This document shows, one piece after another, positions 1 through 14,622 of a DNA stretch of 14,622 bases. The translations under genes and the position numbers were made by a program. The stretch is from an uncultured Polymorphobacter sp. GTDB lineage: Bacteria; Pseudomonadota; Alphaproteobacteria; Sphingomonadales; Sphingomonadaceae. The stretch's first letter is position 1, and every line of letters starts with the position of its first letter. The stretch covers positions 1 through 14,622 of the forward strand of contig CALMPZ010000623.1 of assembly GCA_937871645.1 (NCBI GenBank), in the 5' to 3' direction. The notes beneath the pieces are model-generated. The model had not been told where the DNA came from. It worked only from the letters and a program-made list of their open reading frames with translations, and did not search any database.

Positions 1-48
1 CGGCGCCTTGCCGAAAATCTTTTCCTTGATTGCGGTGAAGATGCTCAT
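1..48 (-). CDS. N-terminus of a DUF3597-like protein (partial, runs off left edge)
   Basis: Sixteen codons are visible, starting from an ATG at 48 and reading MSIFTAIKEKIFGKAP before the window ends. A short N-terminus of the form M-S-I-F-x-x-I-K-x-K-I-F-G is typical of the small DUF3597 proteins common in sphingomonads and other alphaproteobacteria, whose function is unknown. A good ribosome-binding site (AGGGAG, minus strand, 58-63) lies nine bases before the ATG, which supports the start. The gene is separated by 99 bases from the end of the glycan operon on the same strand and is probably an independent chromosomal gene. Family assignment rests on only 16 residues, so it is tentative. Confidence 0.6.
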   Translation of the reverse strand, partial: MSIFTAIKEKIFGKAP

Positions 49-57
49 GAGGTTTGG

Positions 58-63
58 CTCCCT
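58..63 (-). promoter_or_regulatory. Ribosome binding site of the DUF3597-like gene
   Basis: The minus strand reads AGGGAG nine bases upstream of the ATG at 48. It is the only evidence besides the reading frame that this edge fragment is a real gene start. Confidence 0.6.
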
Positions 64-68
64 TGGTC

Positions 69-107
69 AAAAATCGAAGCTAGCCGAGCACCGCCAGCGA
101 GTCTAGC
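69..107 (-). terminator. Weak candidate terminator after the glycan operon
   Basis: After the last operon gene (stop at 148) the minus strand has an imperfect inverted repeat. Arms are at 97-107 and 79-89, with 8 of 11 positions pairing around a 7-base loop. A T5 run follows at 69-73. The location is right for a Rho-independent terminator, but the stem has three mismatches and about five bases lie between stem and T-run. It may be chance, and the operon could end by Rho or read through into the DUF3597-like gene. Confidence 0.25.
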
Positions 108-147
108 GCCGCCAATCAAGCCGGCAACTGTTCAAAAAACTGCAATA

Positions 148-1176
148 TCAGCCTTTTACCGACGACCTGCGCGGCGACCGCAACCAGGCCAGTCCGCCCA
201 TCGCCGCGACAGCAGCCAGCAGCACGCCCAGCAGCGCCAGCAGCAGTTGCGCCGGCAAGCCGCCGATATAGTTCAGCGTATGCACGCCCATCATCGATGT
301 CAGCAGCCGCGGCCCGGCGCCGTGCTGCGCCGGGTCGGCAATGCCGACGACTTCGCCGCCGGCGACGAACACGCGCGTCGCGCCTTCGGGGTTGATGTCG
401 CCGGGCTGCTGGACGTTGACGCTATAGGGACGGTCGGGACTGCGCGGTGCCGCGACGGCGCGCACCGTGCCGCCTGGCGTCGCGCCCTGTGCCACCGCGA
501 TGATCGCGCTCCAGTTGGCGGGGCCTGCGGCAGTGACGGTCGGTGCCTTGGGCATGGCAAAGCCCGGGAGCTTGCCGATCGATTTTTCGAACACCATCGC
601 GGCGCCGCTGGTGAATTGCAGCAGCAACGGCAGCGCCAGCACCAGCGCCAGGTTGCGATGGCTTTTGAGCAGCGCCAGCCGTTTGCCCGACGCCGGCCAT
701 AGCCGCCACGAAAAGCCGCGGCGCAGCGGCCAGTAGACGATCAGCCCGCTGACCACCATCAGCAGCGCCGCAATGCCGACGACGCCGGTGATGATCTCGC
801 CGGTTTCGCCGAGCAGAAGCTTGTGATGCAGTTGCAGCGCCCATTCACCGATGCCGCGCGTGCCGCGCCAGCGTTCGGCGACCTGGCCATCGGCATCGAC
901 CCAGGCGCGTTCGCCGCCTTGCAGGAACGCCGCGCTCAGCGGCAGGTCATAGGGCGCGAGCTTTGCCGAAACCAGCACATCGGGGTGCGCGGCGGCGAAG
1001 CGGTCGAGCCCGGGGCCGAGTTGTGCCGGTGTGACGGGTGCGCCACGCGCGGCAGGCAGCGCGGCCCGGACAAAATCGCCGCGGAACGCCGCCACCGCGC
1101 CCGACAGTGCAATGACGATGAGCAGTGCGGCGAGCACGATGCCCGCCCAGCGGTGGATCTGTCGCAGCAGGGTCAT
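148..1176 (-). CDS. PepSY-associated TM-helix (PepSY_TM) membrane protein, probable haem-binding reductase-like protein
   Basis: This 342-residue inner-membrane protein has the PepSY_TM layout. TM1 is at about 10-31. A periplasmic PepSY-like section at about 45-110 follows, then TM2 at about 128-150, TM3 at about 174-196, a second soluble section at about 200-285, and a C-terminal TM at about 307-330. Histidines flank the helices at H8, H117/H118, H173 and H299. In characterised relatives such as the siderophore reductase FoxB, equivalent histidines bind two b haems that move electrons across the membrane. The start is secure: an AAGGAGAG ribosome site (1186-1193) lies nine bases before the ATG. 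The ATG overlaps the flippase stop (ATGA, 1173-1176), so translation is coupled. Its role in a glycan operon is unexplained. It could be a ferric reductase carried along, or an electron donor for an operon enzyme (inference). Confidence 0.85.
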   Translation of the reverse strand: MTLLRQIHRWAGIVLAALLIVIALSGAVAAFRGDFVRAALPAARGAPVTPAQLGPGLDRFAAAHPDVLVSAKLAPYDLPLSAAFLQGGERAWVDADGQVAERWRGTRGIGEWALQLHHKLLLGETGEIITGVVGIAALLMVVSGLIVYWPLRRGFSWRLWPASGKRLALLKSHRNLALVLALPLLLQFTSGAAMVFEKSIGKLPGFAMPKAPTVTAAGPANWSAIIAVAQGATPGGTVRAVAAPRSPDRPYSVNVQQPGDINPEGATRVFVAGGEVVGIADPAQHGAGPRLLTSMMGVHTLNYIGGLPAQLLLALLGVLLAAVAAMGGLAWLRSPRRSSVKG

Positions 1177-2648
1177 CGGGACGAACTCTCCTTGGTGCCG
1201 TAGTTGCGCTTGGTGCCGCCGAGCAAGATGATGTCGGCGATCAGCTTGCGGTCGAGCAATGGTGCCAGCGCTGCATAGGCTGCGACGCTGGCCAGCGCCA
1301 GCAGCGTTGACAGCGGCACCAGCAAGTTGAGCGCGATGATGGCGCCCGCCAACGCCAGCGGCGGCAGCACCAGCCGGAACGACGGCGGCGCGCACCCCCA
1401 CAGCCGGGCGAAGCGGTGGGCTGACGCCCAGACCATCACGAAGCCGGCGAGCGAGGCGATGGCATAGCCGATGGCGCCGAATGCGTGACCAAGCGCCAGC
1501 GCCAGCACGACCGTTGTCGCCAGCCCGATGCACTGCGACCACAGCACGCGCGTCTGCGCGCCGGCGGCCGCCAGTCCCCAGCGCGCATGCCCCGACCAGA
1601 TGGTGATTGGCACCATCCACGCCATCACCGCGAGCAAGGGCGCGGCGTCGAGCAGTTTGGGGCCGAGCGCGAGGCGGATGATCGGCGTCGCGAACACCGT
1701 CAGTACCAGCGCGAGGAAGGTCGCGCCCCAGCCGGTGACGCGCAGCGACCGCGCCAGCAGAATACCGAGTGAGCCGTCGTTGCGGGCATAGTTGCGTGCT
1801 ACCGACGGGTAGAGGTTGAAGTGATACAGGTTGCTGAACGTCACCAGCGAGGTGACGATGCGCGACGCGGCGGCAAACCATGCGGTGGCGACGCCGCCGA
1901 TCAACGCCCCGATCAGGAACAGCGGCGCATATTGGTTGAGTGCCCAGACCAGATTGGTCGACCCGACCGCTGCGCCTTCGCGCAGCAATGCGCCGAAGCC
2001 GGCGAACGAGCCGCGCAGCCGGATGCGCGCGATGCGGTGGTGCTGGACGGCCAGGCAATACAGCGTCATCGCGCTGACTGCGGCGATTTCGGCCCAGCCG
2101 ACCGCCAGCATGTCGCCGGGCGCGCGCACCAGTGTCCAGATCAGCGCAGCGAAAACGCCCATGCGCAGCATGTCGGCGATGGCGGTGGCAGCCATGCGCT
2201 CGGTCGCCTGGAACAGCCACTGCTGGCGCCACGGCGTGATCAGCAGGCTGAGTGCGAACAGCCAGACCAGTGCCACCGGTATTGTAGTCTTCATCAACTG
2301 CGTGGCGATGAGCATCATCAGCGGCACAGCGGCAAGCGCCAACAGTAGTCGTGCGGCCGGAATCTGGAATGCCAGCAGCGCCAATTCGTCAGGGTCGCGG
2401 CCAACGCGGCGCGTGCCGATGACGTTGAGCCCGCCATCGACCAGCATCGCGAAAAACACTGCCAGCCCGACGACATATTCGACCGCACCATAGTCGACAG
2501 GGTCAAGCACGCGCGCCAGCCAGGCGAACGCCGCAAAGCCGAGCAGCTTGGCGATGACCTGCCCGCCGGCGAGCACGATATAGTCGCGGAAGAACTTGGT
2601 GCCGCTGCCGGCGAGCTTGCGCCACAGCGTTGCGACGGGCGTGGTCAT
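1173..2648 (-). CDS. Wzx-like oligosaccharide flippase (MOP superfamily)
   Basis: This is a 491-residue, almost entirely hydrophobic protein of the usual length (420-500) for O-antigen or exopolysaccharide flippases, with roughly twelve to fourteen membrane helices. The N-terminal region has the family signature: a charged start, then an amphipathic helix, L-A-R-V-L-D-P-V-D-Y-G at about 44-54, and D-G-G-L-N-V-I-G-T-R-R at about 72-82. These proteins move undecaprenyl-diphosphate-linked oligosaccharides from the cytoplasmic to the periplasmic face of the inner membrane. The ATG at 2648 lies 15 bases after the CmoA-like gene; its ribosome site is weak, suggesting coupled translation. Its stop overlaps the PepSY_TM start. 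Presence of a flippase implies that at least one operon product is a polyprenyl-linked oligosaccharide. The exact sugar cannot be read from sequence. Confidence 0.88.
   Translation of the reverse strand: MTTPVATLWRKLAGSGTKFFRDYIVLAGGQVIAKLLGFAAFAWLARVLDPVDYGAVEYVVGLAVFFAMLVDGGLNVIGTRRVGRDPDELALLAFQIPAARLLLALAAVPLMMLIATQLMKTTIPVALVWLFALSLLITPWRQQWLFQATERMAATAIADMLRMGVFAALIWTLVRAPGDMLAVGWAEIAAVSAMTLYCLAVQHHRIARIRLRGSFAGFGALLREGAAVGSTNLVWALNQYAPLFLIGALIGGVATAWFAAASRIVTSLVTFSNLYHFNLYPSVARNYARNDGSLGILLARSLRVTGWGATFLALVLTVFATPIIRLALGPKLLDAAPLLAVMAWMVPITIWSGHARWGLAAAGAQTRVLWSQCIGLATTVVLALALGHAFGAIGYAIASLAGFVMVWASAHRFARLWGCAPPSFRLVLPPLALAGAIIALNLLVPLSTLLALASVAAYAALAPLLDRKLIADIILLGGTKRNYGTKESSSR
1186..1193 (-). 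promoter_or_regulatory. Strong ribosome binding site deciding the PepSY_TM start
   Basis: The minus strand reads AAGGAGAG nine bases before the ATG at 1176. It fixes the start there, although the same frame stays open upstream to 2232 as the antisense-like shadow of the flippase gene. Confidence 0.8.
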
Positions 2649-2663
2649 GCGCGCGTGCTCGGG

Positions 2664-3380
2664 CTATTTGATTGCGAGATAGCCTTCGAAGCAGATATAT
2701 TTGCTGACCGTGGTGATGTCTTCGAACCCCGCGCGGCGCATCAGGCCGAAATTGCCTTCGGTCGAGAACGGTTCGAGGATGCCCTTGAGGCTGCGCGTCT
2801 TGCCGACGATTTCCTTCTCGTCGAAGCCCTGGCGCAGCTTGAATTCATTGTAGAGCCCGACGGCAATGTCCTGGAAGCGCGCATCGGGGGCGCGGACCTT
2901 TTCGAACATGATGAACGCGCCGCCCCAGTTGAGCGCTTCGTAGATGCGGTCGAACAATTGCTGGCGGTCGCGCGGCGGGATGAACTGCATCGTGTAGTAG
3001 GAGATGATGAGGTCGGCCTTTTCGAACGCGAAATTGCGGCCATCCTCCTCCAGAATCGTGATGCTCGGCACGTCGGCGCAATGCGCACGCGCCTTGGCGA
3101 CCATCGGTGCCTCGACGTCCATGCCGATGAATTTGGCGCCGACGCGGTGGGCGTTGTGCAGCGCCAGCTTCTTCAGCAGTTCGCCGGTCGAGGTGCCGAT
3201 TTCATAGGCGGTGCTGGTCGGCGACAGGAACCAGTCGCTGAGCTGGCAGGTCAGGTCGTGGCCTTCTTCGTAGAGCGGTACCGAATGGCGGATGTGGTCG
3301 ACGAAGGTGTCCGCGACGCTGCCGCCGAAGCTCCACGCCGCATTGCCCGCTTCGATGTTTTGTCCGACCTTGCTTGCCAT
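2664..3380 (-). CDS. CmoA-like class I SAM (or carboxy-SAM) methyltransferase family protein
   Basis: This is a 238-residue cytosolic Rossmann-fold protein. It resembles E. coli CmoA (carboxy-SAM synthase, 247 residues) along its full length: W-S-F at 16-18, R-H-S-V-P at 31-35 (CmoA R-S-V-P), motif I region Y-E-I-G-T-S-T-G at 59-66 (CmoA Y-D-L-G-C-S-L-G), M-Q-F-I-P-P at 131-136, and L-N-W-G-G-A at 150-155. R196 falls where CmoA has Arg199, the residue that holds the extra carboxylate of carboxy-SAM. CmoA makes carboxy-SAM from SAM and prephenate for tRNA wobble modification, with CmoB using it. No CmoB is present here, so a glycan-related role or a plain methyltransferase is also possible. 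A GAGGGG ribosome site (3389-3394) eight bases upstream fixes the ATG. The gene follows the only real gap (54 bases) in the operon. Confidence 0.8.
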   Translation of the reverse strand: MASKVGQNIEAGNAAWSFGGSVADTFVDHIRHSVPLYEEGHDLTCQLSDWFLSPTSTAYEIGTSTGELLKKLALHNAHRVGAKFIGMDVEAPMVAKARAHCADVPSITILEEDGRNFAFEKADLIISYYTMQFIPPRDRQQLFDRIYEALNWGGAFIMFEKVRAPDARFQDIAVGLYNEFKLRQGFDEKEIVGKTRSLKGILEPFSTEGNFGLMRRAGFEDITTVSKYICFEGYLAIK

Positions 3381-3388
3381 CTTCGAAT

Positions 3389-3394
3389 CCCCTC
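3389..3394 (-). promoter_or_regulatory. Ribosome binding site of the CmoA-like gene
   Basis: GAGGGG on the minus strand, eight bases before the ATG at 3380. It lies inside the 54-base spacer (3381-3434), the largest gap inside the operon. I see no clear promoter or terminator in that spacer. Confidence 0.7.
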
Positions 3395-3434
3395 GACTGC
3401 CCGTGCGCGCGCAGCATAGCAGCGCAGCGCCGTT

Positions 3435-4757
3435 TCAAACACCCGGCGCGTTGATGCCGAGCCCATCTACCAGCGCATCTACTCTGGCAACTGTTTCAGA
3501 ACGACCGCGATGCGTGGCGACTTCACGCACCAGCGCCAGATAGTCACGCATTGCCGTCGCTTCGCTCCAGCGCGTTGCCGTCGCGGCCTGGCCGGCGGTG
3601 CCGAGCCGGTCGCGCAGCGCCGTGTCGGTGGCGAGCGCGGTGACGGCGTTGCGCAGCGTCGCGGCGTCGGTGAACAGCAGCCCGCCGCCGCTTTCGTCGA
3701 GTATCTGGGCATAGGGGCCAAGGTCGCGGGCGATCAGCGGCGTGGCCTCGCGAAAGGCTTCGAGCGCCACCATCGGGAAGACTTCGTAACACAGCGAGCA
3801 AGCAATCAGCGCACGGGCGTTGCGGTAAAGCGCCGGCAGGTTGGCCGGATCGACCTGGCCAAGGAAATGCACGTTGGACTTGCCCGCCGCGAGCGCGCGC
3901 AGTTCGGCGCCGTAAGTGCCTTCGCCGGCAATCAGCAGGTCGGCGGGGATTGTCTCATCCCACGCCGGAATGACGTCCTGCAGCCCCTTGATGACTTCCA
4001 GCCGCCCGACGAACAGGAAGTACGGCCGCGGGTGCGGTGCCGGTGTGCCGGCGCCTTTCGCTTCGGTCTCGTCAGCGGGCAGGAACGACGCCATGGCGCG
4101 CATTTCACGCGTGAAGCCGAAGGCGCGGTGGTTTTCGGCGACCGAGTGGCTGAGCGCGATGAATGCGTCGACATGCGCGGCTTCGCGTTCGAGCACGCCG
4201 GTGGAACGCCACAGCTGCGGCGGCCGGTGGAACGTCATCGAGCATTTGAAGCAGTCGCGTGCGTCGCACAGCTCGCGGTTGTAGCGCCACAGCACATGAT
4301 TGGCGCAGACCAGCCAATGTTCGTGCGCGGTATGCAGCTTGACGGCGTCGCCGAGCGCCCAGACGCCGGGGCCGCCGATCAGCGAGGTGTTGTGATAGTG
4401 GATGACGTCAAAGCCGCGGTCGAGCAGCGCCTTGATCGCCGCCTTCTGGACGACCGGCGTGCCGGTCTGTTGCGTCAGCATGGCCGAGCCCGTCGGCCAA
4501 CGGCTCGACAGCCGGTGGACGGTGACGCCGGGCGGCTCGGGCAGCGGCGGCGGGATTTCGCTGTGACCGGTCATCGCGCACCAGGCATCGGCGTCATAGA
4601 TGACTTCGACTTCGCAGCCGGCACGCGCGAGTGCGTGTGCGAAACTGCGGACATAGCGTCCGTCACCGCCGAAATTGCATGGCGGATAGAAGGTCGTGAC
4701 GAGTGCGACCCGCAATGGGGCGACCCGCAGCGGCGGTACAGGCTGCGGGTTCACCAT
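3435..4757 (-). CDS. Glycosyltransferase family 4 (GT-B fold)
   Basis: This is a 440-residue cytosolic glycosyltransferase. The N-terminal acceptor half starts with a beta strand and loop V-T-T-F-Y-P-P at 20-26 followed by the glycine loop F-G-G-D-G at 29-33. The C-terminal donor half has V-G-R-L-E-x-x-K-G at 250-258, L-L-I-A-G-E-G at 274-280 and the E-x7-E nucleotide-sugar motif at E325 and E333. A cysteine cluster (C151, C164, C169, C172) sits in the N-terminal half, as in a subset of GT4 enzymes, and may bind a metal. It would add a sugar from an NDP-sugar to a lipid-linked intermediate. I chose the ATG at 4757 because it begins one base after the preceding stop. The frame stays open to 4796, but that would overlap the dioxygenase. 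No good ribosome site is visible, so coupling is likely. Confidence 0.88.
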   Translation of the reverse strand: MVNPQPVPPLRVAPLRVALVTTFYPPCNFGGDGRYVRSFAHALARAGCEVEVIYDADAWCAMTGHSEIPPPLPEPPGVTVHRLSSRWPTGSAMLTQQTGTPVVQKAAIKALLDRGFDVIHYHNTSLIGGPGVWALGDAVKLHTAHEHWLVCANHVLWRYNRELCDARDCFKCSMTFHRPPQLWRSTGVLEREAAHVDAFIALSHSVAENHRAFGFTREMRAMASFLPADETEAKGAGTPAPHPRPYFLFVGRLEVIKGLQDVIPAWDETIPADLLIAGEGTYGAELRALAAGKSNVHFLGQVDPANLPALYRNARALIACSLCYEVFPMVALEAFREATPLIARDLGPYAQILDESGGGLLFTDAATLRNAVTALATDTALRDRLGTAGQAATATRWSEATAMRDYLALVREVATHRGRSETVARVDALVDGLGINAPGV

Positions 4758-4758
4758 G

Positions 4759-6144
4759 TCAGGCGCTGGCGTCGGCCGTCGCCTCGGCAGCTGCAACGCC
4801 GCGCACCAGCCAGATCGCGCCGTCGCGTTCGGTGACGCGGTAGCTGCGCAGCTTGAAGGCGTCGCACGCCGATTTGCCGTCGGTCAGGCTGAAGGCGATG
4901 CCGTGGCCCGGACAGAAAATCTGCGTCGCATCGTGGTGGCCGTCAGCGAGGTCGACCATGCGGTGCGGGCAGCGCCGGTCATAGGCACGCAGGCCTTCGG
5001 GACTGCGCACCAGCAACAGCTTGAGCCCTGGGCCATCGACCGCGAGCTTGTCGCCGGCGGGCAGGTCGGCGGTCGCGCACAGGCGTGTTTCGCCCGATGC
5101 TGCCGGCGCCTCGGCCAAGGTCAGGTGGCGCGTGTGCGGATCGGCCGGCACCGGGGTCTGGCCGACCGACGGTTCGCCGTGGAACTTGTCGGCCGGAAAC
5201 AGCGTGATGTCGGCGAAATCGCGGCGCGCCAGTGCGGGACTCGAATACCAATGTTCGGCATTGAACGGCGCATTGTCGTTGAAGCGCGGCGCGTTGGGGT
5301 TGATGCGCATGGTCAGCGCGACGCGGGTATCGTCCGAAATGTTGACGTGCGTGCCGTGGAGCATTTCGGGGTTGAACAGCAGCAACTGGCCGGGCTTCAA
5401 GTCGACCTTGGTCGGCGCCGGCAGGTTGATGCCGGGCGCCAGATACATGCTCTTGGGATCATAATCGACGCGGTTACCGAACAGTTCGGGGTACAGGATG
5501 ACGGTGTTGCCGGTGTTGACGCCATCGATCGACAGCCAGACGTTGAAGCCGTCATAGCTGTGGCCATACCAGGTGTCGATGTGGGGGCCATGGCTGCGCG
5601 CCAACGACGGCAGATCGCCATGATAGCTGTCGGCATCGAATTCAATCTGGTGTGCGGCGATCTTGGCGCGCTTGCGAATGCGACGGGTGACCTGATTGAG
5701 GAAGATCGATGGCCGGCGCACCCCGGCCTTGATGAGGCGCAGCCGCTCTTCCCAGTCGGTCGCGGGTAGCTCTTCCTTGCCGCCGACGCGCGCCACGAGT
5801 TGCGGGTAGTGGATACGCAGCACGATCAGCATGTCGACATAGAAGGGGTCGGCCAGCCCGATCGTGTCATGGCCGACTTCATACGCCCAGTAGTAGAGGT
5901 CGTCGCGGATGCGCTTCTGGATGAAATCTTCGAGCAGGCGCACCTTTTCGACGGGGAAGTGCTTGTGCAGGCTGCGCAGCCCGTCGCGCTCGATCCCGGC
6001 ACGTGCCTGCGGCCCGGCGAGCGCCTCGACGCCGGCGCCAAAAGCGTCGTGTAGCTTGGCGAGGATGGCGTCGCGGCCGGCATAGTCGTCGAGGATCGAA
6101 TGCTCGCCGCCGAAAACGATCGCCTGGGCATCGGCCTGTTTCAC
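4759..6144 (-). CDS. PhyH-type Fe(II)/2-oxoglutarate dioxygenase fused to a Rieske [2Fe-2S] domain
   Basis: This 461-residue protein has two iron domains. Residues about 150-330 form a phytanoyl-CoA-dioxygenase-like jelly roll. The metal facial triad is H188-x-D190 and H263, with R274 eleven residues after H263. That is the same offset as in human PHYH (His264, Arg275), where the Arg binds 2-oxoglutarate. Residues about 345-450 form a Rieske ferredoxin domain with C392-P-H394, then 16 residues, then C411-P-G-H414, the standard C-x-H...C-x2-H cluster ligands. The N-terminal 140 residues look helical and unassigned. The likely reaction is oxidation of a sugar, lipid or nucleotide-linked substrate. 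The Rieske part may deliver electrons or keep the iron reduced (inference). The start is a GTG with a perfect AAGGAGA site at 6152-6158, seven bases away; it overlaps the upstream stop (GTGA). A frameshift artefact is unlikely because one frame carries both domains. Confidence 0.88.
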   Translation of the reverse strand: MKQADAQAIVFGGEHSILDDYAGRDAILAKLHDAFGAGVEALAGPQARAGIERDGLRSLHKHFPVEKVRLLEDFIQKRIRDDLYYWAYEVGHDTIGLADPFYVDMLIVLRIHYPQLVARVGGKEELPATDWEERLRLIKAGVRRPSIFLNQVTRRIRKRAKIAAHQIEFDADSYHGDLPSLARSHGPHIDTWYGHSYDGFNVWLSIDGVNTGNTVILYPELFGNRVDYDPKSMYLAPGINLPAPTKVDLKPGQLLLFNPEMLHGTHVNISDDTRVALTMRINPNAPRFNDNAPFNAEHWYSSPALARRDFADITLFPADKFHGEPSVGQTPVPADPHTRHLTLAEAPAASGETRLCATADLPAGDKLAVDGPGLKLLLVRSPEGLRAYDRRCPHRMVDLADGHHDATQIFCPGHGIAFSLTDGKSACDAFKLRSYRVTERDGAIWLVRGVAAAEATADASA

Positions 6145-7601
6145 TTTGAGGTCTCCTTCAATTCCGCCTCTGCGGTTTTGCGATATACCTTGACGGTGCC
6201 GCCGCCAAGCGTGCCGTCGAACGAAGCAGCAAGATTATATTCACGCGCGATACGCGCCATGGTTGCTTCCTGGCCCGCCAAGACATGGTCATCGAACGCC
6301 GTGACGATCCACGTGCCCTGCTTGTCCAGCGCGTTCAGATCGGCCTCGGTCGCGATGCCCGGCCAGCCGGGTGCGAGATAGGATTTGAGCGGCGCGCTCG
6401 CCAACCCGATCGAGGTCGCGACATCGTCCGGCGCGCGTTGCGCCGCGATCAGCGCCAGCGCCCCGGCGAAGTCCTGTTTGGGCCGCGCATAGTTGCGTAC
6501 CAGCAGGAGCGAAGATGCCGCCACCATCACCAGCGTGCCCGCCACCAGCAGTGCGTTGGCGAGGTTAGGCCGCCCGATGCGCGCCGCGAGCCAATCGGCG
6601 AGTGCTACCGCACCGGCAGCGACGCACAGGAAGACGAAGCCGATATCGACGAAGAAATAGCGCGGCCAGATGCGGAAATCGAGCGCCACCAGCAAGGCCA
6701 GTGCCATCGGAATCGACAGCAGATAGACCGCGACAATGACTGGCGCGCGCCGCCGCATCGCGTTGATGCCGAGCCCGACGAGCAGCAACGCGCCGCCGAG
6801 TGCCAGTGGCGCCAGCGGGCCGAAACTGTCGAGGCTTGCGGTGATTTCGCGCAGCGTCCGCAGCGGATTGACCCATTCGGCCATTGCCGAGCTGGTCTTG
6901 CCCGACGACACGACATTCATCGCCTTGAGCACCTGCGCATAAAGCGGCAGATGCAGCAGCATGGTCAGAAGTCCGCCGAGGACGAAGCCGTAAACCGGGC
7001 GCCAGTCGCGCTGTCCGCGCAGCCAGACGACGACATAGACCAGCGCATGCGCGGCGAAGAAAAACCCCGCCGACAGATGCGTGTACATTGCCGCGGCGAC
7101 GCAGACCGCGTAGCCCGTCCACAGGCTAAGGCGCGGCGTGCGCAGCCCGCGCGCCAGCAGCAAAGTCGCAAGCGATGTCCAGAACAGCAGCGCGGTATAG
7201 CCACGCGCGTTCTGCGAGAACCAGACATGATGGTACGAAATCGCCAGCAGCAGCACGGCGAGCAGCGCGGCACGCCGGCCGGCAGCCTCGCGGCCGATGA
7301 GCCACAGCACCACCAGGCTGGCGACGCCGTAAAGCATCGCCGGCAGCCGCAGCGCCCAGGCGCTTTCGCCGAAAACCAGCATCGAGGCGCGGGCCTGCAG
7401 CGAGTAGAACATGTGGTTGTTGAGCGACGAGAAGTCGCCGACGAGCTCACCATAAGGTTTGCGGACAAAGTCGGTCAGCGTCAGGATTTCGTCATACCAA
7501 AGTTGCGCGTTGAGCCCGATGACCCGTAGCACCAGCGCCAGCAGCAGAATCGCGGCTAGCGCCAACCATTCGTTGCGGCTGACCGGTTCCTCAGCGACCA
7601 C
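6141..7601 (-). CDS. GT39/ArnT-like polytopic glycosyltransferase (GT-C fold)
   Basis: This 486-residue multi-pass membrane protein is of the PMT/ArnT type. After TM1 (about 12-30) comes the first periplasmic loop with W35-Y36-D37-E38, whose acidic residue is the expected catalytic base. N-N-H-M-F-Y-S-L at 61-68 corresponds to the family's N-H-P-P-L-Y motif, and R-L-P-A-M-L at 85-90 and N-A-R-G-Y at 131-135 are also typical. About ten more hydrophobic segments follow, and a soluble C-terminal part at about 390-486. Such enzymes take a sugar from a polyprenyl-phosphate carrier on the periplasmic side and add it to a lipid, glycan or protein. The GTG start at 7601 has GAGG at 7609-7612 and overlaps the pyruvyl transferase by 11 bases. 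The donor could be supplied by the GT2 gene of this operon (inference). Confidence 0.83.
   Translation of the reverse strand: MVAEEPVSRNEWLALAAILLLALVLRVIGLNAQLWYDEILTLTDFVRKPYGELVGDFSSLNNHMFYSLQARASMLVFGESAWALRLPAMLYGVASLVVLWLIGREAAGRRAALLAVLLLAISYHHVWFSQNARGYTALLFWTSLATLLLARGLRTPRLSLWTGYAVCVAAAMYTHLSAGFFFAAHALVYVVVWLRGQRDWRPVYGFVLGGLLTMLLHLPLYAQVLKAMNVVSSGKTSSAMAEWVNPLRTLREITASLDSFGPLAPLALGGALLLVGLGINAMRRRAPVIVAVYLLSIPMALALLVALDFRIWPRYFFVDIGFVFLCVAAGAVALADWLAARIGRPNLANALLVAGTLVMVAASSLLLVRNYARPKQDFAGALALIAAQRAPDDVATSIGLASAPLKSYLAPGWPGIATEADLNALDKQGTWIVTAFDDHVLAGQEATMARIAREYNLAASFDGTLGGGTVKVYRKTAEAELKETSK
6152..6158 (-). promoter_or_regulatory. Strong ribosome binding site deciding a GTG start
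   Basis: AAGGAGA on the minus strand, seven bases before the GTG at 6144. It shows that the dioxygenase-Rieske gene uses the overlapping GTG and not a later ATG. Confidence 0.8.
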
Positions 7602-8562
7602 GACCGGCCTCGAGCGTCGACACCAGCGAGGATTTCCAGCGCGCGATGGCCTCGACCGGCGGGGTCACGGCAATCGCCAGATCGCCGTCGATCATCGCTT
7701 CCAACCGCGCAAAATCATCGCGCGCCACCGTCGGCAGGTTGAAGTCGCGTCCCATTTCCTGCGCGCGGTTGTCGATTTCGACGATGATGGCGCGGCGGCC
7801 ATGCTGCAGCGCGCGGATGCCGCCGTGGAGGCGGTTGCCGACATAGTCGAGGCTCGGCGCTTCGCGCAGCAGCCGGTCATACGCCGACAGGCTGGGTTCG
7901 AGGATGCGGATATCGTCGCCGAAGCTGCGCAGCCAGTCATGGTCCTCGGCAGTCTGCACCCAGGCGTGGATGACCTTGTAGCGCGACCGCAGCGTTTCGA
8001 TTAGCCGGCCATCGGCGGCGCGGTCGGGGATGTAGGTGTTGAGCGTCGTCACCACTTCGTCGGCACGCGCGCGCGGCAGGGCGGCGCAACGCTCGGGCGA
8101 CAGATTCCACAGCGTCGGGCAGCCGGTGTTGACGGTGTTGGTGATGCCGATCGCGGCGAGCATCGCCTGCGCCTGCGAATCGCGCACCGAATGTAGCGCG
8201 GTGGGGTGCAGCACGCGGCGCAGCAGCCAGCGCGTGTACGGATCCGGCTTCATCTGGTGCTGGTACCAGCCAACTCCCATCAGTACGACGTTCATGCCCA
8301 GAAACGCATCGCGTGGACTGAGCCGCCATACCGAGCGCAGCCACTGGTGCGAGGAAATCAGGTTCGACCCGCCCGCCACCACCAGGTCGGCGGCCTGCAC
8401 CATCGCGCGGCCCTTGGCGCCCATTGTGTCATGGCTGGCGACGCTGGCGACGAGCACGTCCTTCAATGGCCGGTCGAGCTGTTCGCGCACCGCTTCCATG
8501 ATGATCTGGTCACCGATGTTGGTCGAGGCGACCGACGTATCGAGCAAAACGGCGCGTTTCAT
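7591..8562 (-). CDS. Polysaccharide pyruvyl transferase family protein (PF04230)
   Basis: This 323-residue cytosolic protein is of the family that moves the enolpyruvyl group of phosphoenolpyruvate onto sugars, usually forming a pyruvate ketal, for example in xanthan-type polymers. Motifs in order are N-I-G-D at 15-18, G-G-S-N-L at 64-68, S-V-R-D-S at 125-129, G-C-P-T at 147-150, and G-N-R-L-H-G at 242-247, where H246 matches the conserved R-x-H active-site motif. The frame is open further upstream to 8796, but I chose the ATG at 8562. The conserved domain begins there, it overlaps the methyltransferase stop (ATGA, 8559-8562), and AAGG lies seven bases before it. A pyruvyl ketal would give the glycan a negative charge and possibly an anchor for SLH-like proteins. 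The acceptor sugar is not predictable. Confidence 0.86.
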   Translation of the reverse strand: MKRAVLLDTSVASTNIGDQIIMEAVREQLDRPLKDVLVASVASHDTMGAKGRAMVQAADLVVAGGSNLISSHQWLRSVWRLSPRDAFLGMNVVLMGVGWYQHQMKPDPYTRWLLRRVLHPTALHSVRDSQAQAMLAAIGITNTVNTGCPTLWNLSPERCAALPRARADEVVTTLNTYIPDRAADGRLIETLRSRYKVIHAWVQTAEDHDWLRSFGDDIRILEPSLSAYDRLLREAPSLDYVGNRLHGGIRALQHGRRAIIVEIDNRAQEMGRDFNLPTVARDDFARLEAMIDGDLAIAVTPPVEAIARWKSSLVSTLEAGRGR

Positions 8563-9347
8563 GCCGCTGCCTTCGAAACTGCGGCCTTGGTGATACGCGC
8601 GCCGATGATGACCTCGAAATCGGGGTCGCAGAAATCCAGCTCGTCGGGTTCGAGCTCCTCGAGCGCCAGCCCCTGCAGATAGGCGGTTGCCGACAGCACA
8701 TTGCCGTACGGCGTCACGACCGCGGTCGATCCGGGGAAGCGCTCGGCGGCCAGCCGTTCGACAGCCGGCGCGGTCAGCCGCCAATATTCGCCCCAATCGT
8801 CGCGGCCGAGCCGGCGGCCGATCTTGGAGATGCCCGAGGTCGTCAGCAGCAGCACGCCGCCGGGCTTAAGGATGCGGTGCAGCGTGTCGAGCGCGGCGTT
8901 CATGTCCCAGATCATCTGCAGCGTCTGGGTGAAGATGATGCAGTCGAAGCTGTTGTCGGCAATGTGCGGCGCGTTGGTCAGGTCGGCGACGATCGTGGCG
9001 TCGGGGTTGCCTTCGACATAGTGCAGTACTTCGGGCTGGGAGACGCGGCCCTGGCCGTATTTGTTGATGTAGAACGGGTCGCCGAGTTCGAGCGTGCGGC
9101 CGCGGATCGCGTCGGCATTGGTTGCCAGGAACGCCTCGATATAGTGGCGGTCGATCGGCCGGCCGCGCTCCATGCCGAAGCTGGCGCTGACCGGGGTAAC
9201 GCGGCGCAGGTCGCCGAACGCCACACTGCCGCGGCGCGGCCATTGCAGGCCGTACTTGCGCCGCATGCTGCCGATCCACGCGCGTTGGCGCGGGGAAAGC
9301 AGCCGCCGCAACAGGCTGTCCTGGCTGCCTTTGCCTGCGTCAGCCAA
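8559..9347 (-). CDS. Class I SAM methyltransferase with an atypical motif I
   Basis: This is a 262-residue Rossmann methyltransferase of the type often found in surface-polysaccharide clusters. Visible parts are motif I as T-L-E-L-G-D-P-F-Y at about 85-93 (a bulky D-P-F replaces the usual second glycine), the acidic strand-2/3 region V-A-D-L at 121-124, N-S-F-D at about 132-135, L-H-R-I-L-K-P-G-G at about 156-164, and Y-W-R-L-T at about 188-192. The substrate is likely a glycan hydroxyl or carboxyl group (inference). I chose a TTG at 9347: GGGAGG (9353-9358) sits five bases before it, and it overlaps the deacetylase stop slightly. The frame is open to 9635, but that extension is arginine/serine/alanine-rich and is the shadow of the deacetylase gene. 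An ATG at residue 28 is the alternative start. Confidence 0.78.
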   Translation of the reverse strand: MADAGKGSQDSLLRRLLSPRQRAWIGSMRRKYGLQWPRRGSVAFGDLRRVTPVSASFGMERGRPIDRHYIEAFLATNADAIRGRTLELGDPFYINKYGQGRVSQPEVLHYVEGNPDATIVADLTNAPHIADNSFDCIIFTQTLQMIWDMNAALDTLHRILKPGGVLLLTTSGISKIGRRLGRDDWGEYWRLTAPAVERLAAERFPGSTAVVTPYGNVLSATAYLQGLALEELEPDELDFCDPDFEVIIGARITKAAVSKAAA

Positions 9348-10083
9348 ACCCGCCTCCCAGTTTTTCACGCAAGGTCCGCAGCCCCTGGCGGACGCGCAGA
9401 TAGCCATTGCGGCCGTCGAGCAGCCCGCGCCAGTGCCGGCGGTCGCGGAAATAATGCATCTCGATGCGCGGCAGATCGTGCGCGTCGCGGCGCTGCTGCG
9501 CGCGTCCCAATCGCGTGCCGAAACCGAAGCGGTAGTGCCGCGCGATAGTGGCAACGACCGCTGCGTTGACCGCGCCATAGGGGGCGGCAAAGCTGGAGAC
9601 GGGAGCGTCGGTCCACGCCGCCAGTTCGGGCGCACAATCGGCGACTTCGCGTTCGCAGGCCGCCGTGTCGATGCGTGTCAGGTTGGCGTGAGTGCGGCTA
9701 TGCCCGCCAAATTCGAACCCGGCTTGCGCCAGGGCGGCAATATCGTTCGCGGCCATCAACCGGCGCGGCGGCACATCGGCGCCCTCCCAGTCTTCCGACC
9801 CGCCGATGCGTGCGGTCGGCACGAACACCAGCGCGCTGAAACCGTGCTGCGCCAGAATCGGCGCGGCAGTGTCGGCAAAGTCGGCGAACGCATCATCGAA
9901 GGTGATCAGCACCGCCTTGTCCGCCGGCGCACCGTCCCACCAGCGCCCGAAATCATCGAGGCGCTGGCTCGCATAGCCGGCGTCGGCAAGCTCTGCCATT
10001 TGCATCGCAAAGGTGGCGGGCGCAATGCTCGTCGGCCCGGCGTTCGCCGAGATCGAATGATAGGTGAGCACCAGCCCCGACAT
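9340..10083 (-). CDS. Polysaccharide deacetylase (NodB homology, carbohydrate esterase 4-like)
   Basis: This 247-residue protein has the NodB fold motifs: T-Y-H-S-I at 7-11, T-F-D-D at 61-64 (catalytic base and metal aspartates), H128-S-R-T-H132 (metal histidines), and F-A-A-P-Y-G at 165-170, where the usual Arg of F-R-P-P-Y-G is missing, as in many divergent members. L-P-R-I at 204-207 is typical of the C-terminal end. Such enzymes remove N-acetyl groups from amino sugars. No signal peptide is seen, so it probably acts in the cytoplasm on a lipid-linked or nucleotide-linked sugar. The ATG at 10083 shares one base with the preceding stop (TGATG), and GAGGA at 10087-10091 lies just before it. 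The upstream extension of the frame to 10269 lies inside the FAD enzyme gene and is rejected. Confidence 0.86.
   Translation of the reverse strand: MSGLVLTYHSISANAGPTSIAPATFAMQMAELADAGYASQRLDDFGRWWDGAPADKAVLITFDDAFADFADTAAPILAQHGFSALVFVPTARIGGSEDWEGADVPPRRLMAANDIAALAQAGFEFGGHSRTHANLTRIDTAACEREVADCAPELAAWTDAPVSSFAAPYGAVNAAVVATIARHYRFGFGTRLGRAQQRRDAHDLPRIEMHYFRDRRHWRGLLDGRNGYLRVRQGLRTLREKLGGGFG
9353..9358 (-). promoter_or_regulatory. Ribosome binding site supporting a TTG start
   Basis: GGGAGG on the minus strand, five bases before the TTG at 9347 and inside the end of the deacetylase gene. It is the main reason to place the methyltransferase start at this TTG. Confidence 0.6.
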
Positions 10084-11519
10084 CAGTCCTCGACAACATG
10101 CGTTTCGAAAACGGCGCGATAGTCGTGCCACTTGGCGCTGTCGAAGCTGCCGTCGGGGTTCAGGCAATCGACCGCGCCATGCGCCATGGCCAGCGCATGG
10201 TGGGTGTTGTCGTGCGCGAACAGTCCCTGGCGCCCGAAGGTCAGCAGGCCGGTGAAGCCCTCGATCCACTTGTCCATGACCGCGAGATCGCCCTCGAAGC
10301 TGCGGTCATAGACCGGATAGGCATAGCCCAGCCGCCTGGTGTGCGTGGCGCGGACCTTGGCGGTTACCGGCAGCCCGACGCCGCCGAGCCATTCGCACAG
10401 CTTGGCGCCGAGTTCGTCGTCGCTCAGCGCCCACAACGGCTCGTGCGGGTCGCACGGCAGTTCGGCGCACAGGATGGTGACGCCTTGGGGTTCGGTGCTC
10501 GCCGAATAATTCTTGGGCTCCGAAAGCCGCGAGATCGGCACCGCGATTTCGGGGAAATAGTGCGCGTCATATTCGGTGAACTGCTGCGTTTCGAGCACGA
10601 GGTAGATGAGGATCATGCCGCGGTAGCGGATGCGCGCGGCCGCCGCCGCGACTTCGGGCGGCGCCGGCGGGTCCATCATCTTGACCAGCGCGGTAATCGG
10701 CAGCGTCGACCAGACGACATCGCTTTCGACGCGCGTTTCAGTGTCGCCGCGCTTCCAGCGCACCGCGGTCACCTTGCCGTCCTTGTGTTCGACGGCGCTG
10801 ACCGCGGCATCGAGTTCGAAGCGCGCGTCGCGGGCTTCGGCGCGAGCGCGCAGTGCGTCGCTGATCTGGCCGAAACCCTTGCGCGGGTAGAAAAACCCGC
10901 CGGTCATCGGCTTCTTCAGGCCCGGCACCTGGCCGAGAATCTTCTTGACGATCTTGCCGACCGAGCTGCCCGAAATGCGCTTCTGCGCCAAGGTCACCGC
11001 AAGTTCCTCGGGCGGCAGCGCCCAGAGCTTGCGCATGTAGGGGAAATAGAAACTCTCGCTCATCGCCGGGCCGAGGCCGGTGAGCAGCACGCTCGCAAAT
11101 GTTTCGGGGCCTTCGGGTTTGCGGCGCAGCTTCTTCGTCGCGGCGTCCCAGAACAGCGAAAAGGTGAAGCCCTTGGGCAGTTTGAGCACCAGATCGACGG
11201 GCTTGAGCGGGAAGTGAATCCAGCGCTTCTGTAACCGGATTCGGCCATGGCGCGGGCGCCACAGCAGGTCGGGGCCGACGGCATCCTGGATCATCGCCAG
11301 AATGTGCGGCTCGCTGGCCGGGTGGAGGCGGTGGCTGCCGAAATCGCAGTGGATGCCCTCGATGTCGAAGCTACCCGAGTTGCCGCCGACGCGCGGGGCG
11401 CGTTCGAGCGCGACGATTGACTGCGCCTTGCCGCTGTTCGCCAGCATCAGCGCCGCACCGACGCCCGCCGGGCCGGCACCGAGGATGGTCACGCGGGGTT
11501 TGGCAGCGTCAGCCTTCAT
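10083..11519 (-). CDS. FAD-dependent oxidoreductase/mutase, amine-oxidase or UDP-galactopyranose-mutase-like
   Basis: This 478-residue flavoprotein starts with a dinucleotide-binding fold: G14-A-G16-P-A-G19, then the ribose-binding acid in A-L-E39-R, then R-V-G-G-N-S at 43-48. The segment D-F-G-S-H-R at 59-64 is characteristic of the group containing UDP-galactopyranose mutases, protoporphyrinogen oxidase-like proteins and phytoene-desaturase-like proteins. Near the C-terminus F-G-R-Q-G-L-F-A-H-D-N at about 425-435, followed by H-A-L-A-M-A-H-G, closes the FAD site. No transmembrane segments are seen. In a glycan operon it may make or rearrange a nucleotide sugar, but sequence alone cannot tell mutase from oxidase or desaturase. 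The ATG at 11519 overlaps the upstream gene by 11 bases, with a moderate GGAACAGG site before it. Confidence 0.75.
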   Translation of the reverse strand: MKADAAKPRVTILGAGPAGVGAALMLANSGKAQSIVALERAPRVGGNSGSFDIEGIHCDFGSHRLHPASEPHILAMIQDAVGPDLLWRPRHGRIRLQKRWIHFPLKPVDLVLKLPKGFTFSLFWDAATKKLRRKPEGPETFASVLLTGLGPAMSESFYFPYMRKLWALPPEELAVTLAQKRISGSSVGKIVKKILGQVPGLKKPMTGGFFYPRKGFGQISDALRARAEARDARFELDAAVSAVEHKDGKVTAVRWKRGDTETRVESDVVWSTLPITALVKMMDPPAPPEVAAAAARIRYRGMILIYLVLETQQFTEYDAHYFPEIAVPISRLSEPKNYSASTEPQGVTILCAELPCDPHEPLWALSDDELGAKLCEWLGGVGLPVTAKVRATHTRRLGYAYPVYDRSFEGDLAVMDKWIEGFTGLLTFGRQGLFAHDNTHHALAMAHGAVDCLNPDGSFDSAKWHDYRAVFETHVVED

Positions 11520-12483
11520 GCACCTGTTCCAGCTTTGTCAGTTTAGGGGAGGGCCAGCGCAATTGCACCAGAAAGCCAATCAATCCGCTGGCATAGAGCA
11601 CCGTCTGCCACACCAGCCCGATCGCCACGACCTGCGCCGGATCGGCACCGAACGGCTTCATCAATGCCGCCATGCTGGCTTCGCGCACGCCGAGCCCGCC
11701 GAGGCTGATCGGCGCGATGGCGATGATCTTCGCGGTCGACCAGGCGTAGAACCACGCGGCAACCGGCGCCTCGACATGGGCGGCCTGCGCGAAGGCAACG
11801 TTGATCAGGATGAACAGGCATTGCACCGCCATCGAGATGGCTAGGCAGGCGAGCAGCAGTCCCGGCGTGCGCGCCAGATCGGCCACCACCGCAACGACGC
11901 GCGCCACCAGTTTGAAGACCTTGCCGCCGCTGCGGCGCGTCATTGCACGGTCGAGCGGGATCGCCACCGCAAAGCCGATGATGACTGCGCCGACGCCCGT
12001 AAGCATCAGCAGCCGTAGCGCTTGCGGATCGCCAAGTTCGGGACGCCAGGCGACATAGGCGCCCACGAGCGCAATCAGCAGCAGGCCGACCGTATCGAGC
12101 AACCGGTCGGCAACCGAGCCGATGGCGAGCTGCGCCTTGTCATGTGCCTGCGGCATCACCAGTCCGGCGCGCACGACATCGCCGCCGGCAACGCCCGGCA
12201 GCGCCAGATTCGCGGCAAGCCCGGCAAGATGCGCGCGAAACGCCGCAGCAAAGCCGATGCCGGGGCCGATGAGCAGGCGCCACTTGGCTGCGGCAGCTGC
12301 ATGGCCGAGCAGGAACAGCGCGAGTGCCGCGAGCCAAAGCGCCGGCGACAGTGCGCGTGCCGTGGCCCAGACTTGCTTGAACGGCACGAAATAGAAGATC
12401 AGCGCCAGTACGACGGCGCTGACGCCGACGCGAACCAGCCAGATGACGGGTATCTTTCGGGCAGGCTTGGCAGCGACGCTCAT
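11509..12483 (-). CDS. YbhN/LPG_synthase_TM flippase-like membrane protein (PF03706)
   Basis: This 324-residue protein has about eight to nine membrane helices and the family's landmark motifs. These are L-P-G-x-A-G-G-D-V-V-R at 96-105, D126-R-L-L-D130 at the start of a following helix, and P-I-S-L-G-G-L-G-V-R-E at 258-268 near the C-terminal end. The family includes the membrane half of lysylphosphatidylglycerol synthase and many proteins next to lipid-linked-sugar genes, where a lipid flipping role is proposed. It lies directly after a polyprenyl-phosphate-sugar synthase-like GT2, with an ATGA overlap (12480-12483), so it may translocate that product (inference). The start is supported by GGGAGG at 12494-12499, ten bases away. 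A GTG or other start further upstream up to 12501 is less likely. Confidence 0.83.
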   Translation of the reverse strand: MSVAAKPARKIPVIWLVRVGVSAVVLALIFYFVPFKQVWATARALSPALWLAALALFLLGHAAAAAKWRLLIGPGIGFAAAFRAHLAGLAANLALPGVAGGDVVRAGLVMPQAHDKAQLAIGSVADRLLDTVGLLLIALVGAYVAWRPELGDPQALRLLMLTGVGAVIIGFAVAIPLDRAMTRRSGGKVFKLVARVVAVVADLARTPGLLLACLAISMAVQCLFILINVAFAQAAHVEAPVAAWFYAWSTAKIIAIAPISLGGLGVREASMAALMKPFGADPAQVVAIGLVWQTVLYASGLIGFLVQLRWPSPKLTKLEQVHEG

Positions 12484-13433
12484 GCGTCGGGCGCCTCCCA
12501 TTTCGGCGCGGCCTTGACCGATGGCCGCAGGTTGAGCCGCGACAGCATGTCGGCAAGCAGACCGAGCGACCAGATCATCACCGCACCCAGCAGGCCGAGC
12601 ACTGCGGTTTCGGAGAGGTTGTCGACATAAATGTCATAGATGCCCTTGAGCACCCCCATCACGAACAGCAACGCACCCAGCGGCATGAACACGCGCAGCG
12701 GCTGGAAATACACCGTCAGCCGGCAGACGAGGAACATGAAGCGGAAGAAGTCGGTAGCGCGGATTTTCGATACGCCGACGCGCTTGCCGTATTCGATCGG
12801 CAGGTATGACACGCGCTGGCCGGTCGCGAGCATGCATAGCGTGACGGTCGTGGTGAACGAAAACGCCTCGGGCAGCAGCGGCACGAACTGTTCGAGCGGC
12901 TCACGCCGGAACACCCGCAGGCCCGAGTTCAGGTCGGTAATTTCGTGGCCGGCGAGCACGCTGGCGAGGTTGTTCAAGACCCATTTCGCCGGCTTGCGAA
13001 TCAGCGGCACGCCCTTCATCGCGGCGCCGCGATCACCGACCACCATGTCGTTATAGCCCGCCATCGCGATCATTTCGGGCAGATATTTCGCCGGATAGGT
13101 GCCATCGGCATCGAGAATCGCGACCAGCGGCGCGGTACTGACCGCAATGCCGGCCTTGAGCGCGCGGCCATAGCCGCCGTTGTTGGGGAAGTTGACGACA
13201 CGCGCATCGGTTTCGCGCGCGCGGGCCAGCGTGTCGTCGCTCGAACCGTCGTTGACGACGATGATTTCATGGGCAATGCCCGCTGCGGTCAGCACGGCGC
13301 GCACGCTGTCGACCGTCGCCTTGACGGCATTCTGTTCATTATACGCCGGAATGACGACCGAAACCGCCAGCGATGGCGCTTTGGCCACGCTGTTCGCAGC
13401 CGCGCTTTCCGAATGTTCAACCTGCCCTGTCAA
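12480..13433 (-). CDS. GT2 glycosyltransferase, polyprenyl-phosphate-sugar synthase-like (DPM1/GtrB type)
   Basis: This 317-residue enzyme has a cytosolic GT-A domain and two C-terminal membrane helices (about 245-265 and 277-297). Motifs are V-V-I-P-A-Y-N-E at 26-33, V-N-D-G-S-S-D-D-T at 60-68, N-N-G-G-Y-G at 84-89, the metal-binding D108-A-D110, and D-L-N-S-G-L-R at 167-173. This is the dolichyl-phosphate mannose synthase-like group, which loads one sugar on a polyprenyl phosphate. It is the first gene of the operon. The start is a TTG with only a weak GGGGG-rich site before it. The GTG at residue 16 is the main alternative, and no ATG occurs before the catalytic domain. Its product would be the natural donor for the GT-C enzyme downstream. 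Confidence 0.85.
   Translation of the reverse strand: MTGQVEHSESAAANSVAKAPSLAVSVVIPAYNEQNAVKATVDSVRAVLTAAGIAHEIIVVNDGSSDDTLARARETDARVVNFPNNGGYGRALKAGIAVSTAPLVAILDADGTYPAKYLPEMIAMAGYNDMVVGDRGAAMKGVPLIRKPAKWVLNNLASVLAGHEITDLNSGLRVFRREPLEQFVPLLPEAFSFTTTVTLCMLATGQRVSYLPIEYGKRVGVSKIRATDFFRFMFLVCRLTVYFQPLRVFMPLGALLFVMGVLKGIYDIYVDNLSETAVLGLLGAVMIWSLGLLADMLSRLNLRPSVKAAPKWEAPDA
12494..12499 (-). promoter_or_regulatory. Ribosome binding site of the YbhN-like gene
   Basis: GGGAGG on the minus strand, ten bases before the ATG at 12483 and inside the end of the GT2 gene. It supports the inner ATG over the longer frame. Confidence 0.55.
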
Positions 13434-13647
13434 AGCTTTACCCCCGGTTGGTCGACGCCTCTATAGCGCGCCGGCGTGACAATGGCACCCTGTTGTCGAC
13501 GCAATTCTTCGCGTGTGCAGCATTTTACCCACAATGCACGAAAATCCGGCTAGCCTTTGTATGCAGCCGCTGCAACTTTGCACTACGACCGTAACGGACA
13601 TTGTGCGATTAGCTTGCGACGCCGTGCTTGTGACCATGTGACCAAGG
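13434..13647 (-). promoter_or_regulatory. Divergent intergenic region expected to hold the operon promoter
   Basis: These 214 bases separate the twelve-gene minus-strand operon from the plus-strand membrane protein and are visibly richer in A+T than the surrounding genes. On the minus strand a TATAGA sequence (13460-13465) lies 26 bases before the TTG start, and a TAAAAT sequence lies at 13522-13527. Neither has a convincing -35 partner at 16-18 bases, so neither is called as a promoter with confidence. Two copies of GTCGACGC occur at 13451-13458 and 13495-13502. No small gene or RNA gene is evident. That promoters for both directions lie here is inferred from the gene layout. Confidence 0.5.
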
Positions 13648-14622
13648 ATGCCGACACTGGAACCCCGAACCGCTGCCGTATCGCCAACAAATGCCGACGC
13701 CGCGTCGCGCTTGCCGGCGCATACGCTGCGCGCGCGGCTGCAGATTTTCGGGTCGATGCTGTTGTTGGCGGTGGCCTTGCTGTGGCCAGCGATGGTGCAG
13801 CAACGCCCGGCCTATTTCTTCGATAGCGCCGGCTATCTGAGCACCGGAACCAAGGCGTTCGCGATTGCCAGCGACAAAATTGCGTCCAAGCTTTCGACAA
13901 CCGGCGAAAAGCCTGCCGCGAAGGCTGGTGTACCGGCGCCGCCGCGCGTCACCAGCGTCGTGTCGATTCGCGCCATCGCCTATAGCCTGTTCGCGGCCGC
14001 GACTTCGGCGCCCGGCTACCGGATGCACGCGCTGATCGCGGTCAACGCGCTGGTGGTGACCTTGCTGATCTGGCAGTTCTGGCGGATCCGGGCACCACGC
14101 GCGTCGCCGCGTGACGAGGCGTTGGCGGCGCTTTTCGTCGCAACCGCGACCTCGGCACCGTGGTTTGTCAGCTATGCGATGCCCGACATCTTTGCCGGCG
14201 CGGCAATTCTGGCGCTGCTGATCCTGACGTTTGCGCCGTTGCACCGGCAGCGCGTGGCGCGTGCTGCAGTGGCGAGTGTCGTGACCTTCGCGGTCGCCGC
14301 GCACGCCAGCCATATCCCGATCATCGGGCTGATTGTTGCGGCGGCGGTTGCCGAATTGTTGTTCGAACGCTGGCGCGGCACGGCGCCTTGGTCGTGGCGC
14401 CGGTTCGCCTGGGTGGTCGTGCCCTATGTTGCCGGTATGGTGCTGGTCGTGGCGCTATCGGTCGTCAGTTTCGGATCGGCCAGCGTGGCACCCAAGCGGC
14501 TGCCGTTCGCGCTGGCCAAGTCGATCGATGACGGACCGGGCAACTGGTATCTCAAGGCGACCTGCGCCGAAAAGCACTGGGCGGTTTGTCCGTTCTTCGC
14601 ACGAACCGGTGGTGGCGGCCCC
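13648..14622 (+). CDS. Multi-pass membrane protein, possibly a GT-C-type glycosyltransferase (partial, runs off right edge)
   Basis: The frame is open for 325 codons from the ATG at 13648 to the window end, with no stop, so the gene is partial. An in-frame TGA at 13639-13641 means the start cannot lie further upstream. Hydrophobic segments at about 33-50, 126-146, 156-174, 180-197, 205-221, 223-239 and 253-275 indicate an integral inner-membrane protein. F-F-D59-S-A-G-Y-L, just after TM1, and A-M-P-D180-I-F-A-G further on look like the acidic first-loop residue and a later motif of GT-C enzymes, but I cannot name a family. The ribosome site is poor: AAGG touches the ATG. Gene direction is opposite to the operon, and a shared divergent promoter region suggests a related glycan role (inference). 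Confidence 0.75.
   Translation, partial: MPTLEPRTAAVSPTNADAASRLPAHTLRARLQIFGSMLLLAVALLWPAMVQQRPAYFFDSAGYLSTGTKAFAIASDKIASKLSTTGEKPAAKAGVPAPPRVTSVVSIRAIAYSLFAAATSAPGYRMHALIAVNALVVTLLIWQFWRIRAPRASPRDEALAALFVATATSAPWFVSYAMPDIFAGAAILALLILTFAPLHRQRVARAAVASVVTFAVAAHASHIPIIGLIVAAAVAELLFERWRGTAPWSWRRFAWVVVPYVAGMVLVVALSVVSFGSASVAPKRLPFALAKSIDDGPGNWYLKATCAEKHWAVCPFFARTGGGGP

Follow-up and report, generated by a model that had tools for sequence, protein, structure and literature searches.

A fused protein with a PhyH-type 2-oxoglutarate oxygenase domain and a C-terminal Rieske domain in glycan gene clusters of Polymorphobacter and other bacteria

We analyzed a stretch of 14,622 nucleotides from an uncultured Polymorphobacter sp. 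(contig CALMPZ010000623.1, positions 1 to 14,622; hereafter the window), in which a single open reading frame (ORF) encodes a 2-oxoglutarate (2OG)-Fe(II) oxygenase domain of the PhyH clan followed by a Rieske [2Fe-2S] domain. The ORF occupies positions 4759..6144 of the minus strand and encodes 461 amino acids; its GTG start codon at 6144 is preceded by an AAGGAG ribosome-binding site, and its stop codon lies at 4761–4759. An initial annotation, made from the letters of the DNA, had given the coordinates correctly while leaving the strand unstated. It had also named a facial triad (H188, D190, and H263), a 2OG-binding arginine (R274), and four Rieske ligands (C392, H394, C411, and H414), and all of these residue numbers were reproduced on rechecking, as was the count of 16 residues between H394 and C411. 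A further 47 residues follow H414. When the residues of the fusion protein were shuffled, the CxH-15 to 17-CxxH pattern arose in 1 of 20,000 shuffles, and in none of 20,000 did it arise jointly with HxD...H-10-R. These shuffles, together with the Pfam Rieske match (43.8 bits, E = 2.4e-11; cut-off 20.3), rule out a chance motif.

The Pfam PhyH score of the window protein was marginal (20.5 bits, under the cut-off of 22; 22.9 when the protein was scanned with its frame neighbors), so the main evidence for the dioxygenase fold comes from relatives and from structure. We collected 14 fused proteins, 12 of which were scanned with Pfam (L006 and L007 were left out; here and below, L and G numbers denote loci and genomes). 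Rieske exceeded its cut-off in all 12, whereas PhyH was over the cut-off in seven and below it in three (the window, L008, and L061), and for L009 and L059 no PhyH match was reported at E 0.001. Five AlphaFold2 models of the window protein had mean predicted local distance difference test scores of 87.2 to 71.5. In the best one, residues 1 to about 300 match PtlH, MysH, and human PHYH, and residues about 350–455 match Rieske ferredoxins. The model thus predicts a double-stranded beta-helix fold for the oxygenase domain, and the clustering of the triad was judged through the fold match and the alignment. The HxD...H triad and the 2OG arginine are present, as are the CxH...CxxH ligands and the Rieske fold. 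Domain scans, fold matches, and the residue check therefore agree with the initial annotation that both domains are real and both ligand sets complete, the dioxygenase fold being supported mainly through relatives and structure.

The two domains are conserved together. H188, D190, H263, R274, C392, H394, C411, and H414 are invariant in the alignment of all 14 fused proteins, as are N201, W203, N213, R280, and C427; the 14 are not independent, since they include the near-copies window/L006/L007 (91–93% identical), L059/L144 (86%), and L145/L146 (92%). In every one the Rieske domain is C-terminal, with a linker of variable length. In four proteins (L071, L145, L146, and L147), the Rieske domain is shortened and keeps all four ligands and a cysteine near the end. 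In comparisons of the window protein with two close relatives, the ratio of nonsynonymous to synonymous substitution rates (dN/dS) was 0.13–0.16 for the oxygenase part and 0.04–0.08 for the Rieske part; within this genus, therefore, the Rieske domain is not a decaying passenger.

The fusion is a lineage and not an accident. Matches to both domains occurred in all three searched genomes of the genus of the window, and in none of 56 other genomes of its family and none of 39 of its order, where the other matches listed covered the Rieske part. A scan of genome contigs returned four relatives, all fused: two from Polymorphobacter, one from a Burkholderiales metagenome-assembled genome (67% identity), and one from Croceibacterium salegens (62%). 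Searches at class level (385 genomes) and phylum level (398 genomes), in which up to four candidates per genome were scored and members may have been missed, gave both-domain matches in at least five genomes (that of the window, G298, G215, G280, and G234) and in at least two (that of the window and G587, from a different class), respectively. Family searches found the fusion in two of five genomes, contributing G832, and in 4 of 79, G587 included, contributing G855, G894, and G899. Its recurrence in Polymorphobacter arshaanensis, Croceibacterium salegens, and other genomes rules out a sequencing or assembly chimera, and further members, annotated yet undescribed, are likely to exist elsewhere. 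Three queries against plasmids gave only a stand-alone oxygenase in Embleya; one query against phages gave no match, and a single scan of viral contigs with two Rieske-motif patterns gave none that was confirmed. One same-genus genome also carries, at a contig edge (G002:C92:3-245), a second fragment of the fusion C-terminus that is 96% identical; this 81-codon piece, a duplicate or the product of a strain mixture, was excluded from the 14 fused proteins.

Relatives lacking the Rieske domain were also found. A profile of the oxygenase part picked out 34 of 235 class genomes, with 37 matches in all; 30 of these matches were compared at their loci, the remaining seven being left out. The best five were fused and the other 25 unfused, a ranking that is partly by construction because the profile included fused rows. 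A Rieske-type pattern was absent from all 25 unfused loci (2.5–3.8 kb; L166 also lacked an ORF bearing the oxygenase pattern). Likewise, none of eight neighborhoods of unfused relatives contained a stand-alone Rieske gene that would have served as a Rosetta-stone hint (L133 also lacked the oxygenase motif). The 2OG arginine is kept in all four aligned unfused relatives. In an oxygenase tree of nine fused and eight unfused rows, one change suffices to account for the fusion, which is compatible with a single fusion event; with support of 39/0 and 40% of bootstrap trees, the tree leaves a single origin unproven. In two unfused relatives, L109 (G302) and L115 (G449), an N-terminal segment weakly matches the Nif11-like leader peptide family (25.7 and 29.5 bits, respectively, against a cut-off of 32.3).

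The genes around the fusion in the window are listed in Table 1. The flippase, glycosyltransferases, and sugar-modifying genes bear out the glycan operon in which the initial annotation had placed the protein. The stop codon of the PMT_2 gene, whose product we take to be ArnT-like, overlaps the start codon of the fusion (GTGA). On the other side, the mechanically called start of the GT4 ORF overlaps the fusion, and an in-frame ATG lies 1 base past the fusion stop. The CmoA-like protein, dependent on S-adenosylmethionine (SAM), scores 138.5 bits against a CmoA cut-off of 193.3 and matches PDB 4gek (E 5.5e-32); it is also matched in L059 and L144. In a glycan cluster, such a methyltransferase might point to an unusual SAM derivative as cofactor or product.

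Table 1 Features of the window around the fusion gene
Feature	Position	Strand	Evidence
PhyH-clan 2OG-Fe(II) oxygenase + C-terminal Rieske fusion, 461 amino acids	4759..6144	-	ORF, family scans, model
Oxygenase domain, residues 1-310, triad H188/D190/H263, R274 (H+11)	5215..6144	-	structure match, alignment, motif check
Rieske ferredoxin-type domain, residues about 351-450, C392-x-H394, C411-x2-H414	4795..5094	-	Pfam, structure match, motif check
Polysacc_synt (Wzx-type) flippase	1173..2648	-	family scan
CmoA-like SAM methyltransferase	2664..3380	-	family scans, PDB match
GT4 glycosyltransferase, directly downstream of fusion	3435..4796	-	ORF list, family scan
PMT_2 glycosyltransferase, directly upstream of fusion	6141..7601	-	ORF list, family scan
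Polysaccharide pyruvyl transferase	7591..8796	-	family scan
Methyltransferase	8559..9635	-	family scan
Polysaccharide deacetylase	9340..10269	-	family scan
FAD-dependent amine-oxidase-type protein, PRK07208-like, below PRK07208 cut-off	10083..11519	-	family scans
LPG_synthase_TM membrane protein	11509..12501	-	family scan
GT2-type glycosyltransferase, closest to NCBIfam AglJ but under the cut-off of that model	12480..13433	-	NCBIfam scan

Most other members also lie in a glycan setting. When 11 window proteins, including the fusion, were compared with other loci, nine were matched in L009 with their order kept, and six in L059 in a different order. A GT4 gene lies directly downstream of the fusion in L008, and a Wzx-type gene adjoins it in L071 and L145–L147, with a sulfotransferase as well in L145. 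The L060 cluster (L060:290-10982) is of nonulosonate type: alongside NeuB, a DegT aminotransferase, and a formyltransferase, it contains an asparagine-synthase-like protein, a GT28-C protein judged by eye to be PseG-like, and a second PhyH protein that directly follows the fusion. Two genomes of a single genus, G298 and G832, carry a cytochrome b561 gene (PF01292; L059:6600-7355 and L144:7126-7884) between the fusion and GT4 genes; its product is a candidate electron donor for the Rieske domain in that genus. Next to the glycan genes, the same genus also has genes for a carbamoyltransferase and a protein of the SxtJ family (PF19588; L059:2053-4346).

Each half of the protein resembles a known family. 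With the PhyH-clan oxygenases PtlH, MysH, PHYH, and EvdO2, the fusion shares the fold, the HxD...H triad, and, in the window, the arginine at H+11; the matched chains, however, have about 240–310 residues, leaving no room for a Rieske domain. TIGR04324, the sporadic carbohydrate cluster 2OG-Fe(II) oxygenase family (SpoChoClust_2), resembles it in the sequence around the second histidine and the arginine and in its carbohydrate-cluster setting, whereas the model has 248 positions and no Rieske domain; no paper on this family name was found in the literature searched, in which most subscription journals lay outside the scope. Five of seven scanned fused proteins score 29–47 bits with this model (none was reported for L061 and L062), and with 29.2 bits for the window and 47.3 for the best, L071, against a cut-off of 150, the fusion falls short of membership in TIGR04324. 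The Rieske ferredoxins of dioxygenase systems (CarAc, NdoA, and BphA3) share the fold and ligands of the C-terminal domain, but are stand-alone proteins, about 105 residues long, that serve other oxygenases.

Alpha subunits of ring-hydroxylating oxygenases have an N-terminal Rieske domain followed by a helix-grip catalytic domain. The fusion is not one of these: its Rieske domain is C-terminal, its length differs, its catalytic part matches another fold, and Rieske and PhyH are the sole families found in it. The catalytic fold of CMAH is presumably, like that of NamH, UlaG, and we know of no reason to expect a 2OG site in either enzyme. Published work describes NamH as a sugar hydroxylase with a UlaG catalytic domain and a C-terminal Rieske domain (PMC10050696) and CMAH as a sugar hydroxylase with a Rieske domain that requires cytochrome b5 (PMC9219854). 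By these accounts, both carry a Rieske domain in a sugar hydroxylase outside the ring-hydroxylating class, as the fusion may, whereas the catalytic domain of NamH is UlaG and that of the fusion PhyH-like. Membership in the CMAH/NamH class, which requires the beta-lactamase-like UlaG domain, is rejected on this fold match and on the two families found. Cpz10, a 2OG oxygenase from caprazamycin biosynthesis, has a second iron, and the electron relay proposed for it has been compared to Rieske oxygenases; no Rieske domain is mentioned in the sections consulted of its description (PMC9814697). The initial annotation had called the fusion unexpected; the combination is indeed unusual, while a Rieske domain on a catalytic domain that is not of the ring-hydroxylating kind has precedent in NamH and CMAH. 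The new element is the 2OG-oxygenase scaffold carrying a Rieske domain. Within the literature scope given above, we found no characterized class of this architecture and no description of the fusion, including in the portions seen of PMC3475032, PMC10598087, and PMC2684587.

We propose, with about an even chance of being right, that the protein is a 2OG oxygenase tailoring surface glycans, with a covalently attached Rieske ferredoxin that passes outside electrons to the catalytic iron. The N-terminal beta-helix domain would bind Fe(II) through H188, D190, and H263 and 2OG through R274, and would oxidize a sugar or a polyprenyl-linked sugar intermediate. Because the arginine and the triad are conserved, 2OG is probably still bound and used; because the cluster ligands are conserved, electrons probably also enter the protein. 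The Rieske domain would take them from an outside donor, perhaps a BphA4-type ferredoxin reductase in the genome of the window or, in the G298 genus, cytochrome b561, and pass them to the catalytic iron. The simplest role would be to reduce the iron back to Fe(II) when turnover has been uncoupled, so that the Rieske domain would do the job of ascorbate within the same polypeptide. Such re-reduction is one of three putative roles put forward in the initial annotation, beside redox sensing and chemistry that needs an extra electron. Several observations weigh against this proposal. 2OG oxygenases in general function without a Rieske-like partner. No reductase was recognized among the cluster genes of the window. 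Near the PF14759 gene on contig C536, the non-overlapping ORFs of at least 90 codons within 9 kb included none with the Rieske pattern. When the ORFs of nine loci were compared, the sole match of the L144 cytochrome b561 was the L059 copy, and none of the ORFs listed for L145–L147 matched it; this comparison kept the longest of overlapping ORFs and can thus hide real genes, as it did the L007 fusion gene. A GT2-like ORF is the sole glycan hint in L062, and no glycan gene was identified in L061. Finally, in L071 and L145–L147 the Rieske domain stops 10–11 residues past the second ligand pair, and the structural matches listed for the L145 model cover residues 33–315 and not the short Rieske part.

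The electrons could instead be used in catalysis itself. It is unlikely, in our judgment, that the Rieske domain supplies them in each turnover on a beta-helix scaffold, with 2OG unconsumed or the arginine binding a substrate carboxylate. Such an arrangement would have its parallel in NamH and CMAH, and would fit the cytochrome b561 gene adjacent in one genus and the L060 cluster with its NeuB, aminotransferase, and formyltransferase; however, all 14 fused proteins and all four aligned unfused relatives retain the 2OG arginine, and the need for it would not be obvious there. A sensing or structural role, in which the cluster responds to redox state or oxygen, or the domain tunes the oxygenase, and no electrons reach its iron, also seems improbable. 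The constant C-terminal position with a variable linker would suit it, as would the lack of any recognized donor gene shared by the loci, but the four ligands are invariant in all 14 proteins although much of the Rieske domain diverges, and its top structural matches are ferredoxins that transfer electrons. Still less probable, and by a wide measure, is a Rieske domain serving a separate reaction or partner, such as a flavoprotein of the cluster, and fused for co-expression or docking only. FAD or GMC oxidoreductase genes do share the stretch with the fusion in the window (10083-11519), L009, L059, L144, L061, and L062, but they fall into three families (amine oxidase, GMC, and DAO), and none occurs among the seven scanned neighbors in L060, one of which has no family.

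2OG oxygenases count as self-sufficient, with their electrons coming from the co-substrate. In the fusion, two known families are joined in an arrangement that is conserved and that is more general than the initial annotation could know. Since a built-in carrier has been kept with every ligand across distant bacteria, an outside electron appears to matter in the cells. A bolder proposal, which we hold only tentatively and think rather doubtful, is that the fusion represents one more way to wire a Rieske cluster to a mononuclear iron, in which external electrons would act in productive turnover on the 2OG-oxygenase scaffold, giving glycan chemistry beyond either parent class (such as an oxidation that is reductively gated or uses an extra electron), convergent with CMAH and NamH. 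The fusion makes testable both the recovery of 2OG oxygenases from Fe(III) inactivation in bacteria that lack an obvious ascorbate supply and Rieske-driven chemistry on a 2OG scaffold, and it suggests that a modification of surface glycans in bacteria is yet to be found.
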